A stretch of 64,000 bases of DNA from Phycisphaeraceae bacterium (GTDB lineage Bacteria; Planctomycetota; Phycisphaerae; Phycisphaerales; SM1A02): positions 3,539,205 to 3,603,204 of the forward strand of contig CP054178.1 of assembly GCA_015709595.1 (NCBI GenBank), in the 5' to 3' direction. Positions 6,356 through 59,452 of this stretch are shown piece by piece. Within the stretch, counting starts at the first letter, position 1, and the number at the start of each line of letters is the position of its first letter. The notes under the pieces are model-generated. The model was given only the letters and a program-made list of their open reading frames with translations. It made no database searches and had not been told where the DNA came from. The translations under genes were made by a program, and so were the position numbers.

Positions 6356-7099
<744 letters not shown>

Positions 7100-51888: not shown

Positions 51889-53754
51889 ATGTACCACGCC
51901 CTGCTGAGCAATCGCTACCTGACGACGCGGGTGATTCCGCTGATTGCGGTGGCGGCGGTCGCCCTGTGCACCGCGCTGGTGATCATCGTGGTGAGCGTGA
52001 TGAGCGGGTTCGTGGACATGATCCGCAACGCGGGCAAGACGCTGATGGGCGACGTCATCGTCAGTCGCCCGATCCACGGCATTCCCAACTACGAGCGGCT
52101 CATCGCGGAAATCCGCGCGCTGCCCGCCGCCGCCGAAGCCAGCCCGGTGGTGGATTCGTGGGGGCTGCTCAAGATGCCCTACGAGGACACCGAGGTGGTG
52201 CAGGTGTGGGGCGTGGAGCCCAGATCGTTCAGCGCCGTCACGTCGATGGACAAGGCCCTTTACTGGCGTCCGCCCACCGATGCGCAGTGGATGGCGGCTC
52301 TGCGCAACGCAACGCGGGAGCTGTGGGAGCTTCCGTCGTTCTTCACCAGGGAGGAGCGCGAGGAAATCGCCAGGTTCACGCGCGACCCGATGCGCTCCGC
52401 GTTGATCGGACTGGCCCCGCCCGAGCAGCGCGCCGCCATCCGCGACCTGCCCCTCGATCAGTTCCGCGCCAGCTTGCCGGGTCTGGTCGGCGAGTTCGGC
52501 TGGCAGGATCTGTGGCTCCGCGAGCCGCGGCTGCGGCCGGAGAGCGAACGTCATCTTGACCTGCGTCGCCTGCTTGAATGGGGGCGTCAGCTGCGCGCGC
52601 CGGACGGCGGACTGGACGCCATCATCACCGGGATTCATGTCTCCAAGGCCAACGAGCGCCGCAGCGACGGCACGTATCGCGTGCTGGCCCAGGGATCGCT
52701 GTGGATGCCCGCGCAGCAGGTGACGCTCACCGTGCTGCCGGTCACCGACCGCGGCGCCGTCACCGACCCGCAGAGCCGCATCCTCACCGTGGTCAACGAG
52801 GCCCAGTTCGGGGTCTTTCAGATCGACGACAAGCGCGTGCTGGTGCCGGTGGAGCTGCTGCAGCGCATGCTCGAGCTCGACGCCTCGGAGATTGTCGATC
52901 CGAACACGCTGGACCCGGAGACGGGCGAGCCAATGGTGATCGGGCGGCGCTCGGCCCGGGTGACGATGATTCTCGTCAGCGCCAAGCCCGGCTTCACGCC
53001 TCAGCAGCTCAAGCAGCAGGTGGAGGAGGTGTATGCACGGCTGCAGACCGCCATGCGGGCCGAGCGCGTGCCGGACGCCCTGCCTGACCGCCTGTTCGTG
53101 GGCATCAAGACGTGGGAGGAGCAGAACGCCCAGATCATCGGCCCGGTGGAGAAGGAGCGCAATCTCATGCGCATTCTCTTCTCCATCATCTACGTGGTCT
53201 GCGCCGGGCTGGTGCTCGTCATCTTCTGGGCCATCGTGTACGAGAAGACCAAGGACATCGGCATTCTCCGCTCGGTTGGCGCCTCGCGCGTGGGGATTCT
53301 CTGGGTGTTCGTGCGCTACGGGCTGGTGGTGGGCGTCATCGGCTCGATCATCGGGCTGGGGCTGGCGTACCTGGTGGTGCGGAACATCAATCACATTCAC
53401 AATGCCCTGGGTGAGCCGTTCCCGGCGTGGATGTGGGGCAGCGTGTACGCCGCGGCGGCCGCCGCGCTCATCATCACCGGCTGGCTGGCCACGCGCGGGA
53501 GCATTCTGCCCGTCATCTCGATGCTCCTGGCGACCATCGCGTTGTTGGGCGTCGGGGGGGGCATGATGGTTCATCCTGGGTTCCTCGTGTGGGATCCCAA
53601 GGTGTACTACTTCACCGAGATTCCAAGCCGCGTGGACTTCGTCAGCGCCGTCGGCACCATGCTCGGCGCCGTGGTGTTCAGCGTGATCGGGGCGCTGATC
53701 CCCGCCGCCCGCGCCGCCGACTTCGATCCCGTCGCCGCACTTCGATACGAATGA
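51889..53754 (+). CDS. LolC/LolE-like FtsX-type ABC permease
   Basis: 621 aa from ATG 51889 ([14 protein letters not shown]), chosen because upstream in-frame residues are not family-like. TM1 ([26 protein letters not shown]), a large periplasmic domain (about 50-420), then three TMs with [21 protein letters not shown] as the cytoplasmic coupling motif. This is the lipoprotein-releasing LolCE pattern, with extra hydrophobic segments between the last FtsX helices. The stop overlaps the ATPase start (ATGA), so the pair forms one transporter. Confidence 0.85.
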
Positions 53755-54710
53755 CCACGCCCAACCCCTCATCCCGACGCTCAAGCAACGGCGCGGCAGC
53801 GGCCATCGACGCCTCACCCGTCGTGCTGGAAGCGAAGAACGTCCACAAGACGTACCGGCTGGGGCGCGTTGATGTGCCGGTGCTGCGCGGGGCATCTCTG
53901 AGCGTGCGTGAAGGCGAGTGGGTGGCGGTGCTCGGCGCCTCCGGCTCGGGCAAGAGCACGCTGCTGCACCTGCTGGGGGATCTGGACCGACCCGACGCGG
54001 GCAAGGGCGCGATTCAGTCCAACGGCACGCCGCTTCACGCCATGACCCACGAGCAGCGCAGCCGCTACCGCAACGACCACGTGGGCTTCGTCTTTCAGTT
54101 CTACCACCTGCTTCCGGAACTGTCGGTGCTGGAGAACGCGATGCTGCCGGGCCTGGTGCGGGCGTCGATCCGTTCTCGGAGGTGGTGGGCGATGGTGATC
54201 GTAGTCTCCGGCCTGGTCATGCTGGCCGCCTGGATCGGTGCGGCCGGCGCGCTGGGGCTGGCGGAGGCGATCGGGTGGAGGCCGGGCACCGTCCTGGCGC
54301 TGGTGGGCGGCATCGGGTTCCTGGCGGGCGCGCTGGTCGGCCCCTCGATCGTCACCGAGGTCGCCACCCTGCTGGGTCGCTTTCGGCCCGGCTACGCGGA
54401 AACCAAGCGTCGCACTCGCGACATGCTCGAGGCCTTCGGGCTGGGACACCGGCTCACGCATCGACCGCGCGAACTCTCCGGCGGCGAGCGCCAGCGCGTG
54501 GCCATCGCCAGGGCCCTCGTCAACGGACCGCGCATCCTGCTGGCCGACGAACCCACCGGCAACCTGGATGAAAAGACCGGCGGCGAGATTCTCGACCTGC
54601 TCGCCGAACAACACCGCCGGGGGCTGACCATCGTCATGGTGACGCACGACCGAACCGTGGCGGCGCGGGCCGACCGCATCGTCGAAATCCACGACGGCCG
54701 CGTCGTGTGA
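53751..54710 (+). CDS. LolD-like ABC ATPase with inserted transmembrane hairpin
   Basis: 319 aa (LolD proteins are about 225-235). Walker [11 protein letters not shown] (61-70), Q-loop [11 protein letters not shown] (Gln116), signature [16 protein letters not shown] (241-256), Walker [14 protein letters not shown] (262-274) and H-loop THD (298-300). Between Q-loop and signature lie about 126 residues versus 47 in the similar ATPase at 7099-6356. The extra part, residues about 136-214, has two strongly hydrophobic stretches (145-170 and 179-207) flanked by Arg-rich turns. ATP hydrolysis motifs are intact. The ATG overlaps the permease stop. Confidence 0.88.
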
Positions 54711-54735: not shown

Positions 54736-55959
54736 TTACAGATTCCCCCGCCGCGCCTGCTCCAGCTCCAGGGCCTCGAACAGGGCCTTGAAGTTGCCCT
54801 TGCCGAAGCTCTGGCTGCCGCGGCGGCAGATGATCTCGAAGAACAGCGTGGGCCGGTCCTGGAGCGGCTTGGTGAAGAGCTGCAGCAGATAGCCCTCGTC
54901 GTCGGAATCAACCAGGATGCCCAGCTCGCGGATGCGGTCGTGGTCTTCCTTCACCGCTTCGTGCCCGTGCTGCCGCAGCATGGTGTTCACGCGGTCCCAT
55001 ACCTTGTCGTAGTAGGCGTCGGGCAGGGTGAGGAAGTCCACCCCTCGGCTGCGCAGGGCGGCGATCGAGTGCAGCTCGTCATCCGTCCGCAGGGCCAGGT
55101 GCTGCACGCCGGGCGTGTTCTGATGCCAGTCGAGGTATTCCTGCACCTGGCTCTTCTTCTTGCCCTCGGCCGGCTCGTTGATGGGCATCTTGATCAGGTT
55201 GTTGCCGCTGGCCATGACCTTGGACATCAGGGCGGAATACTCGGTGGAGATGTCCTTGTCGTCAAAGTGCTTGAACATCGAGAAGCCCAGCACGTTCTCG
55301 TACCACCGGACCCAGTGATTCATCCGACCGAGTTCGACGTTGCCGACCAGGTGATCCACGTACTTCAGCCCGCAGGGGTGCTTGCGGTTGTAGTCGTTGA
55401 TCGCCAGCACGGCGGAGTTGCCGCCCCCCTCGAGTTTGCGGAAGCGCGGCTTGAACAGCCCTCCCTGCTTGACGCGGTTGAGGTCATACGCGCCGGTGCG
55501 GCTGACGAAGGAATGCACCACCCGGCCGTAGGTCTTGATGCCGGCCATGGTGACGCTGCCGTGTTCATCCTTGAACGTGCGGGGCTCGTAGGCCGACTCG
55601 CCGCCGTTGCGGACGGCCTGCTCCCACGCCTTTTCGGCGTCGAACACGGTAAAGGCCACGTCCTTCACGCCGTCGCCGTAGATCGCCACTTCCATCGACG
55701 CGGGGTGGCTGGCCGTCAGCCCGCTGGTCAGGATGAACCGGATGTTGCCCTGCGTGAGCAGGTAATGGGCGGCGTCGCGGTACCCGGTGGTCAGGTCGCC
55801 CACCTGCTCGATCTGGAAGCCGAAGCAGTGGGCGTAGAAGAACGCCGCCTGCTTGGCGTTGCCGACGTAGAACTGCACGTGATCCACATCGATCAACTGC
55901 AGGGGATCAACCTCACGGGTCATTGAGACAACCGGCGACTTGGACTGGGCGGTGGTCAT
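54736..55959 (-). CDS. hppD: 4-hydroxyphenylpyruvate dioxygenase
   Basis: 407 aa. Two VOC-type halves; the Fe(II) ligands are His in LKYVDHLVGNV, His in TPGVQHLALRT and Glu in TLFFEIICRRG. The C-terminal FGKGNFKALFEALELEQ is highly characteristic. It converts 4-hydroxyphenylpyruvate to homogentisate in tyrosine degradation or in tocopherol/plastoquinone-type synthesis. No hmgA or fah is adjacent. GGAG site before ATG 55959. Convergent with the LolD-like gene. Confidence 0.97.
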   Translation of the reverse strand: MTTAQSKSPVVSMTREVDPLQLIDVDHVQFYVGNAKQAAFFYAHCFGFQIEQVGDLTTGYRDAAHYLLTQGNIRFILTSGLTASHPASMEVAIYGDGVKDVAFTVFDAEKAWEQAVRNGGESAYEPRTFKDEHGSVTMAGIKTYGRVVHSFVSRTGAYDLNRVKQGGLFKPRFRKLEGGGNSAVLAINDYNRKHPCGLKYVDHLVGNVELGRMNHWVRWYENVLGFSMFKHFDDKDISTEYSALMSKVMASGNNLIKMPINEPAEGKKKSQVQEYLDWHQNTPGVQHLALRTDDELHSIAALRSRGVDFLTLPDAYYDKVWDRVNTMLRQHGHEAVKEDHDRIRELGILVDSDDEGYLLQLFTKPLQDRPTLFFEIICRRGSQSFGKGNFKALFEALELEQARRGNL

Positions 55960-57262: not shown

Positions 57263-59452
57263 GTGAGCCAGCAGCCCGGCATGATCGACCCGGATCGATT
57301 AGACGCCTCATTGCAGGCGGCGATCGACGCGCTCTTCTCGCTTCAGAAGCCCGACGGTCACTGGTGCGCGGAGTTGCAGGGTGACTCAATTCTGGCCAGC
57401 GAGTACCTGCTGATGAAGTTCATCCTGGGCCAGGAGAACGCGCCCATGCGCGACGGCAGGACCGCCGCCGAGGTGCTGCCCCGCATCGCCAACTGGATGC
57501 GTTCGATGCAACGGGCGGACGGCACGTGGGGACAGTACCCCGGCGCGTCGATGGACGTGAGCGCCACCGTGAAGGCGTACTTCGCACTCAAGCTGCTGGG
57601 CGACGACCCGGATGCTCCGCACATGACCGCGGCCCGCGAGGCCGTTCGCAAGGCGGGGGGTGCGGAACTGTGCAACAGCTTCACCAACTTCTATCTGGCC
57701 TGCCTGGGGCAGATTTCGTGGAACGCCGTGCCAAGCATTCCGCCGGAGGTCATCTGGCTGCCGCGCTGGTTCCTCTTTCACATGGACAAGGTCAGCGCGT
57801 GGACGCGAACCATGATCCTGCCGCTGGCGCTTGTGTCCGCGCTGAAACCCACGCGGCGGCTGCCCAGGCGGCTGGGGATCGACGAACTCTTCATCAGCCA
57901 GCGGGATCGGCATCGGCTCACATTCCTGCATCGACCCGAAATCGAGGAGCAGGGGTTCTTCAGCGCCGCCACGCTCTTCCGCATGGCCGACAAGACCATC
58001 AAGTGGGCGGAGCGGCTGGGGCTGACGCCACTGCGCCGCATGGCCATGCGTGATGCGCTGGCATGGATCCTGGAGCGCAGCGGCGCGACCACAGGCGCCG
58101 CCACCGACGGTCTGGGGGCGATCTTCCCGCCGATGGTCTACATCCAGATCGCCCTCAACGCGCTGGGTTATCCGCGGCACGACCCCATCGTTCGTCACGC
58201 CGAGCGGGAGCTGGATGCGTTCTTCATCGAGGCGGGCGAGCACATCCGCATTCAGCCGTGCTTCTCGCCCGTGTGGGACACCGGCATCGCCCTCTACGCC
58301 TTGTGCGACGCGGGCCTGGACGCCTCGGACCCGCGCATCGAACAGGCGGCCGCATGGCTCCGCTCCAACCAGTGCGAACACGTCGGCGACTGGGTGCGCA
58401 ATCTCAAGCCGCAAGATCAGGCCAGGTATCTCGTCGGTTCGGCCTGTCCCAGGTTTCCACGGGAATCCTGGACGCCGGGTGTGGAGGCGGGCTGGACAGC
58501 ATCGGCGCACGCTCTTGTCACTCCACCGCCGCGCCCCAGGCCGCCCGCGGGCTGGTGCTTCGAGTATCACAATGCGTGGTACCCGGACGTGGACGACACG
58601 GCGATGGTCGCCATGGCTCTTCGACGCGCGGGCGGCGCGGCGAACCACGAATCGGCCCGGCGCGGCGTCGAGTGGATTCTTGACATGCAGAATGATGATG
58701 GCGGGTGGGCCGCCTTCGACCGCACCGTCGATCGACCCATTCTTGAACTCATCCCGTTCGCCGATCACAACGCCATGCAGGATCCATCCTGCCCGGACAT
58801 CACGGGACGCGTGCTGGAATGCCTGGCATGGCACGGCTATACGAAGGATCATCCGGCGGTCGCCAAGGCCATTCGCTACATCCGATCGCGTCAGGAGCCG
58901 GACGGCTGCTGGTTCGGCCGCTGGGGCGTGAACTACATCTACGGCACGTGGCAGGCGGTGATCGGACCGATCCGCACGGGGGTGCATCGCGACGAACCGT
59001 GGGTTCAGCGGGCGGGCAAGTGGATCAAGTCCATTCAGCAGCCGGACGGCTCGTTCGGCGAATCGGCGGACACCTACGAGATGCCCATCGCACGCGGCCA
59101 AGGTATTCCCACGGCGTCGCAGACCGCCTGGGCGTCGATGGTGCTCTTCGAGATCTTCGGTCCGCATGACCCGGATCTGTCGCGGGCCATTCAGTGGCTG
59201 ATGAAGACCCAGATGACCCCGGAGCAGGCCGCCAACCGCGCATGGAACGTGGATGGCGATCGCGCCGGCTCGTGGCGAGAGCTGGAGTACACGGGCACCG
59301 GATTCCCGCGGGTGTTCTACCTGCGCTACCACCTGTACCGGCTCTATTTCCCGCTGATGGCGCTGGCGAGATACCGCCGGAGCGTGAAGCCGCTGCCCGG
59401 CGGGCTGCCGCACCTTGCCCGGATGCGGGTTCCGGTACCGGCGGCGGGATGA
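57263..59452 (+). CDS. shc: Squalene-hopene cyclase with extra loop
   Basis: 729 aa from GTG 57263 (SD GGAG 10 nt upstream). The catalytic DVDDTA (Asp442, Asp444, Asp445) and many QW repeats (QKPDGHWCAEL, QRADGTWGQYP, QNDDGGWAAFD, QEPDGCWFGRWG, QQPDGSFGES) identify it. It cyclises squalene to hopene, the first hopanoid. Where homologues run GDW(x)8-10 into GGWxFQ, this protein has about 43 extra residues (384-426), encoded at 58412-58540, immediately before the DxDD region. A TACAAT at 57213-57218 may be the -10. Confidence 0.94.
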   Translation: MSQQPGMIDPDRLDASLQAAIDALFSLQKPDGHWCAELQGDSILASEYLLMKFILGQENAPMRDGRTAAEVLPRIANWMRSMQRADGTWGQYPGASMDVSATVKAYFALKLLGDDPDAPHMTAAREAVRKAGGAELCNSFTNFYLACLGQISWNAVPSIPPEVIWLPRWFLFHMDKVSAWTRTMILPLALVSALKPTRRLPRRLGIDELFISQRDRHRLTFLHRPEIEEQGFFSAATLFRMADKTIKWAERLGLTPLRRMAMRDALAWILERSGATTGAATDGLGAIFPPMVYIQIALNALGYPRHDPIVRHAERELDAFFIEAGEHIRIQPCFSPVWDTGIALYALCDAGLDASDPRIEQAAAWLRSNQCEHVGDWVRNLKPQDQARYLVGSACPRFPRESWTPGVEAGWTASAHALVTPPPRPRPPAGWCFEYHNAWYPDVDDTAMVAMALRRAGGAANHESARRGVEWILDMQNDDGGWAAFDRTVDRPILELIPFADHNAMQDPSCPDITGRVLECLAWHGYTKDHPAVAKAIRYIRSRQEPDGCWFGRWGVNYIYGTWQAVIGPIRTGVHRDEPWVQRAGKWIKSIQQPDGSFGESADTYEMPIARGQGIPTASQTAWASMVLFEIFGPHDPDLSRAIQWLMKTQMTPEQAANRAWNVDGDRAGSWRELEYTGTGFPRVFYLRYHLYRLYFPLMALARYRRSVKPLPGGLPHLARMRVPVPAAG
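58412..58540. repeat. Possible palindromic insertion inside shc
   Basis: 129 bp encoding 43 residues absent from homologues as I know them. Imperfect inverted arms: cctggacgccgggtgtggag near 58465 and the reverse complement of ctccaccgccgcgccccagg (58521-58540). The arms are less regular than in rtcB. Confidence 0.5.

Follow-up and report, generated by a model that had tools for sequence, protein, structure and literature searches.

ABC transporters are taught as assemblies of separate modules, in which the ATPases are cytoplasmic and the membrane helices lie in the permease. LolD normally carries no membrane segments, the ATPase of MacB is fused end to end with the helices of the permease, and the permease LolC of E. 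coli has about 400 residues. According to the accessible part of the description of LolCDE, LolD makes contact with its partners at their coupling helix, C-terminal sequence and N-terminal elbow helix (PMC8333309). The same part reports the TM3-TM4 segment of E. coli LolC as a short loop and that of LolE as a membrane-surface helix plus a loop; these segments are in contact with the acyl chains of the lipoprotein, whose binding was lost with each single change tested in the LolE TM3-TM4 loop (PMC8333309). The LolC TM3-TM4 loop also borders the entry interface, according to the available section of a second report (PMC9595528). For FtsE-FtsX, the available portion of the text lists region R4 of FtsE (residues 101-115) among those that shape the FtsX coupling-helix cavity (PMC7468199). 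A homodimeric LolF type has also been described, in a text whose available part does not mention planctomycetes (PMC11784454).

The window analyzed here is a stretch of 64,000 nucleotides from a Phycisphaeraceae bacterium. It encodes a LolD-like ATPase with a predicted two-helix membrane hairpin inside its helical subdomain. We consider it fairly probable that the locus specifies a transporter of the LolF2-LolD2 type (type VII ABC transporters) in which this ATPase is an integral membrane subunit, tethered by the hairpin beside the permease. Such an arrangement breaks the division between ATPase and permease and, if confirmed, would be a new way to build a common machine. The preliminary description knew of no described example, and none was recognized in the open-licence PMC literature among the matches listed, judged by titles and abstract starts. 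A search of the same literature for MalK cross-links and for HisP or MalK spanning the membrane returned nothing usable among the matches listed.

The ATPase and permease genes

The ATPase gene (53751..54710, + strand) encodes 319 residues without internal stop and matches the ABC ATPase family PF00005 with 111.8 bits, against a Pfam gathering cut-off of 25. Walker A (residues 62-69, 53934..53957, +), the Q-loop glutamine Q116 (54096..54098, +), the signature LSGGERQ (residues 242-248, 54474..54494, +) and the Walker B region ILLADE (residues 262-267, 54534..54551, +) are intact, and the motif residues are conserved across nine hairpin ATPases, in which most positions of Walker A are invariant. 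The intact motifs had been noticed in the preliminary description, as had the unusual distance between Q116 and L242 of the signature, and both observations stand: the spacing is 126 residues, against 47 in the paralogue encoded at 6356-7099 on the minus strand. The genome's five other nearest paralogues have 52-54 residues, and values up to 59 occur in more distant ones. Most of the core of the AlphaFold2 model has a pLDDT of 86-96, and this core superposes on LolD, MacB and FtsE chains with Z of about 28-32 and rmsd of 1.4-2.0 over 212-222 residues. For the LolD chain 9xro_F the values are Z 31.0 and rmsd 1.4 over 214 aligned residues with 51% identity.

The gene directly upstream (51889..53754, +), whose start is supported by alignment, overlaps the ATPase gene by four bases (53751-53754). 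Its product is a LolF/LolC-like permease that, with 621 residues, greatly exceeds E. coli LolC in length. It contains the FtsX domain PF02687 (47.8 bits, cut-off 25.5) and the MacB periplasmic core domain PF12704 (37.1 bits, cut-off 27), a pair of domains that places the transporter in the type VII (MacB-like) ABC class. The LolC-like partner proposed earlier is thus supported by the Pfam and NCBIfam matches. Thirty-nine loci were read, 33 from the family of the source genome (family f1, source genome counted), three from the same order, two from named Phycisphaerae contigs and one from Blastopirellula marina. The permease adjoins the ATPase in 38 of them, and the remaining ATPase (G013) lies at a contig end.

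LolF-LolD and LolCDE are the nearest described systems, by the best NCBIfam matches of both proteins (TIGR02211 for the ATPase) and by the adjacent lolF-like and lolD-like genes in lolF-lolD order. The scores nevertheless remain below the curated cut-offs. The ATPase reaches 246.6 bits against the 307.75 bits of the LolD equivalog TIGR02211; two orthologs with a short spacing also miss this cut-off (241.9 and 250.4 bits), so the insert is not the reason for the low score. The permease reaches 143 bits against the 362.45 bits of the lolCE model TIGR02212, which is also missed by the permease of a relative with a short ATPase (152.1 bits). No match to LolA (PF03548) was found in the source genome at E up to 0.01, the control search being positive in six of 14 genomes; the chaperone may be divergent or replaced. 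The missed cut-offs and the lack of a PF03548 match leave a lipoprotein role unsecured. Judged by sequence, the ATPase probably works like the LolD of a LolF-LolD transporter, yet it is not filed as a LolD equivalog because it scores below the curated value and no PF03548 LolA was found. The source genome contains one clear LolC/E-like permease, the sole other match being weak and partial (E 6.9e-4, residues 474-566), which fits the homodimeric LolF type as presented in the available part of its description (PMC11784454).

Further differences from these systems concern the membrane helices. The alignment with solved LolD chains covers both flanks of the insert and leaves the hairpin without counterpart, and the permease of this locus has an extra hairpin in its TM3-TM4 shoulder that distinguishes it from LolF and LolCDE. 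The locus shares the ATPase core fold and both permease domains (PF02687, PF12704) with MacB, but the additional membrane helices are predicted inside the ATPase domain and not as an end-to-end fusion. Pneumococcal FtsE, a related ATPase, has its glutamine at Q88 and its LSGGE at 140-144, hence an ordinary spacing of 52 without insert, in the part of the report available (PMC7468199).

The inserted segment as a predicted membrane hairpin

The inserted segment comprises approximately residues 136-214 (54156..54392, +), between the helix that follows the Q-loop and the helix that precedes the signature, as delimited by the alignment to LolD chains and by ortholog comparison. The alignment to solved LolD chains splits into query residues 23-136 and 207-318, and the break corresponds to about residues 113-116 of E. 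coli LolD. The insertion point is Q+20/21. By counting, and not by alignment, this corresponds to about residue 108-109 of FtsE (Q88), inside region R4 (PMC7468199, available portion).

In contrast to an ordinary LolD, the insert contains two hydrophobic segments for which membrane insertion is predicted. The Kyte-Doolittle peaks over 19 residues lie at 147-165 (2.30) and 179-197 (1.97) and match the segments initially placed at about 145-170 and 179-207. The first predicted membrane helix (54177..54269, +) corresponds to the AlphaFold2 helix 143-173 and the second (54282..54377, +) to the AlphaFold2 helices 178-195 and 197-209. The pLDDT of these helices is low (54-66 per ten residues), in a model built from seven aligned sequences with the insert present in the query alone.

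The same pattern is found in the 24 hairpin proteins of family f1. The two chosen 19-residue windows have a mean hydropathy of 1.46-2.94 each, and outside the insert these ATPases have no 19-residue window above 1.23. Summed over the 24 proteins, the ratio of K/R to D/E is 42:1 in the N-terminal flank, 29:55 in the loop and 100:46 in the C-terminal flank, and each protein has at most two K/R in the loop between the helices. The charge flanks of the 24 inserts thus follow the positive-inside rule. The first hydrophobic segment of the G026 protein is weak (1.46), and in 20 of the 24 members the summed biological-scale values, taken without positional terms, are positive for one or both helices. 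This suggests that some helices may need help from the permease to insert.

No known domain was recognized in the insert, its sole Pfam match being PF16949 with E 0.072, below the cut-off of that family, and its best matches among PDB sequences had E values of only 0.47 and 0.91. A frameshift or assembly artefact was considered and rejected, since a match running through the insert is present in at least 24 genomes of the family and the insert is under purifying selection in nine related genomes. Overall, the reading as a membrane hairpin, already put forward in the preliminary description, is supported by hydrophobicity, charge distribution, a low-confidence helix prediction and occurrence in at least ten genera, insertion into the membrane being a prediction.

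Occurrence and origin of the insert

A search for the same architecture in other planctomycetes, as had been suggested, covered 181 genomes of family f1 from 45 genera, with 12 candidates scored per genome. A match running through the insert was found in at least 24 of the 181 genomes (source genome counted) and at least ten of the 45 genera. The distance from the Q-loop to the signature is 121-138 residues in all 24 hairpin proteins. In the four multi-member genera with the hairpin, all 18 listed members carry it (8/8, 5/5, 3/3 and 2/2). This patchy presence within the family had escaped the preliminary description. Among the 39 loci, the hairpin is present in nine, a spacing of 77 in two and a spacing of 51-58 in 28, including Phycisphaerales_ALOHA (53) and G005 (58). 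The hairpin is missing from most relatives and is therefore not essential to this kind of transporter. The class with spacing 77 (G003, G023 and G106; L075, L081 and L153) has a loop of 39 residues that includes a short hydrophobic stretch with Pro and may represent a shortened hairpin or a re-entrant segment. Two genomes call for separate mention. Beside its hairpin ATPase, G019 has two other contigs with pieces of a further LolD-like ATPase (contigs C123, C165 and C217); with a listed contamination of 7%, it may be a mixed genome. In G180, insert-spanning matches on two contigs (C6 and C41) reflect a duplicate gene or an assembly duplicate.

Outside family f1, no insert-spanning match was found among 301 genomes of the order (E up to 1e-55) or 397 genomes of the class (E up to 1e-58), and a single one, in G525, among 392 genomes of the phylum (E up to 1e-50). 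These three samples overlap, the best 5-7 candidates per genome were considered in each, and such searches would miss an insert so diverged that the match is split. G525 belongs to another class and is assembled in 330 contigs. In its ATPase (L137:1619-2725, +), Q-loop and signature are 135 residues apart, and hydropathy peaks twice (2.29 and 2.37) at the same site. No relative of the permease of the window was found in the reading frames of the 9 kb around this gene, which extend only about 1.6 kb upstream. The best LolF-like permease of G525 has no shoulder hairpin in its C-terminus, and three weaker permease matches exist. At E up to 1e-30, the G525 protein matched only itself in 246 genomes of the phylum and in 20 genomes of its class. 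Coming from one fragmented genome, the G525 case is a lead.

The history of the insert was traced on two trees, one of the permease (38 of the 39 loci, G013 having no permease row) and one of the permease combined with the insert-free ATPase core (36 rows, with G013, G005 and Blastopirellula left out). Two 39-residue loops were scored as short in both. On these trees, the distribution of the hairpin requires six changes, of which starred branches force at least five. The inserts of nine f1 members and of G525 were also compared directly, all 45 pairs being aligned against block shuffles. Those of G006, G012, G019 and G032, which form one clade, are mutually linked (z 5.2 to 16.6). A second set is scattered over the tree, with links between G000 and G030 (z 6.8), G030 and G026 (5.5) and G011 and G028 (6.3). 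The G011 insert joins G000 and G030 weakly (z 3.0 and 3.4), and among these five the remaining pairs score only z 0.2 to 1.5. Between the two sets, z never rises above 1.9, and no similarity is detectable beyond the hydrophobic pattern. The G525 insert is unlinked to the others save G028 (z 3.0, one of 200 shuffles), possibly by chance.

A single detectable origin of the inserts was rejected, as the two f1 sets and G525 have no clear mutual similarity. Two sequence sets within the family and a third in another class make more than one origin probable, as far as can be judged from these comparisons. The scattered set fits ancestral presence followed by repeated loss, for which a parsimony count of equal cost would give six gains instead. 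One reading would thus be an old hairpin lost several times, together with a separate or strongly diverged second type confined to one clade.

Within the hairpin proteins, the insert diverges rapidly. In pairwise comparisons of nine genomes, its mean identity is 22% (10-61%), against 66% (60-85%) for the core. The letters change while hydrophobicity and charge persist, as expected of membrane helices.

The permease hairpin and the possible role of the ATPase helices

The permease of the locus has a modification of its own that the preliminary description had missed. Between TM3 and TM4, in place of the shoulder helix of LolE, lies an extra two-helix hydrophobic hairpin (53425..53571, +). It forms two hydropathy peaks at a threshold of 1.3 (1.49 and 2.22 in the source genome), the first of which falls to 1.30 in the weakest case. 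Helices 513-535 and 539-561 are modelled there with pLDDT 63-77, in an otherwise poor permease model (mean pLDDT 54.5). The distance from the coupling helix to the shoulder motif is 108-111 residues in 33 of 34 f1 permeases, as it is in the two named Phycisphaerae contigs, and 56 residues in all eight outside permeases (seven from the same order and Blastopirellula). The 34th f1 permease, that of G030, escaped the motif pattern, and its C-terminus has the same long stretch. Every f1 permease examined thus has an enlarged TM3-TM4 segment, when the modified ATPase is found in some members only. This altered shoulder suggests a rebuilding of lipoprotein release in the planctomycete family concerned. 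The permease is also enlarged in its periplasmic part between TM1 and TM2. Strict co-occurrence of the two hairpins was considered and rejected, the permease hairpin being found beside short ATPases as well.

The sequences show a recurrent insertion at one site, its hydrophobicity and charge bias, purifying selection on it, intact motifs and an adjoining permease. The transmembrane topology of the hairpin is predicted, and from these elements we infer a homodimeric assembly, a packing site, a tethering role and a lipoprotein substrate. Both ends of the hairpin would be cytoplasmic and its turn periplasmic. It would sit in the loop of the helical subdomain beside the coupling helix of the permease, and a hairpin leaving the ATPase at this site could plausibly reach the membrane beside the permease. 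There it would most likely pack along the outside of the permease helices, possibly near the extra hairpin of the permease, and keep the ATPase attached and oriented in each cycle, the ATPase otherwise working normally. The preliminary description had proposed either a tether or extra helices for the LolC-like partner; a combination of both would be the most economical role, with direct gating as a possible one.

In a bolder version, the hairpins of ATPase and permease would pack against each other and the nucleotide cycle would directly move helices at the lipoprotein entry gate, an arrangement invented more than once at one site. We regard it as speculative and not very likely; if true, the ATPase subunit of this ABC transporter would itself contribute part of the transmembrane domain. 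Unlikely as well, and to a similar degree, is that the hairpin serves in gating or coupling. Driven by ATP, the rotating helical subdomain would then move the membrane helices of the ATPase, which would push the permease and provide a second drive path, possibly acting on the TM3-TM4 hairpin at the lipoprotein entry gate, beside the coupling helices. The position of the insert in the helical subdomain, by counting adjacent to the pocket of the coupling helix, is consistent with such a role, as is the enlargement of the TM3-TM4 segment of the partner in the same family. The acyl-chain pockets of E. coli LolCDE are lined by this segment, which also lies at the border of the entry interface, in the available parts of both reports (PMC8333309, PMC9595528). 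However, the f1 permease has its hairpin with or without that of the ATPase, so the two are not strictly coupled, and the rapid divergence of the insert is unlike that of a precise coupling part.

An improbable alternative to the tethered, membrane-spanning subunit is a re-entrant or amphipathic hairpin that lies on or in the inner leaflet without spanning it, as a stronger form of an aromatic-basic loop. Short orthologs have a loop of 13-20 residues at the insert site, which in many of them is rich in W/Y/F and R. These loops would be the simpler form, and the 39-residue Pro-containing version in three genomes, the modest hydrophobicity of the G026 segment and the positive biological-scale sum of a helix in 20 of the 24 members point in the same direction. 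Against this stand the two windows of 1.46-2.94 in every one of the 24 members, with no more than two K/R between them.

The median dN/dS is 0.24 for the insert and 0.17 for the core (36 pairs from nine related genomes, eight of one genus and G019), and the insert is therefore under purifying selection in these genomes. This value and the retention of the hairpin in each of the 18 members listed for the four multi-member genera that have it make it very improbable that the insert is a dispensable, near-neutral elaboration, inserted in the membrane but without role, despite its identity of about 22% and the six gains or losses counted on the tree, at least five of which are forced.

Related genera have the ATPase gene in a hairpin, an intermediate or a plain form next to the same permease, which makes the role of the hairpin testable by swaps of natural variants. 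In the window, the ATPase gene converges with a reading frame on the minus strand (54736-55959) that we take to resemble a 4-hydroxyphenylpyruvate dioxygenase, and a further reading frame (57263-59452, +) presumably resembles a squalene-hopene cyclase.
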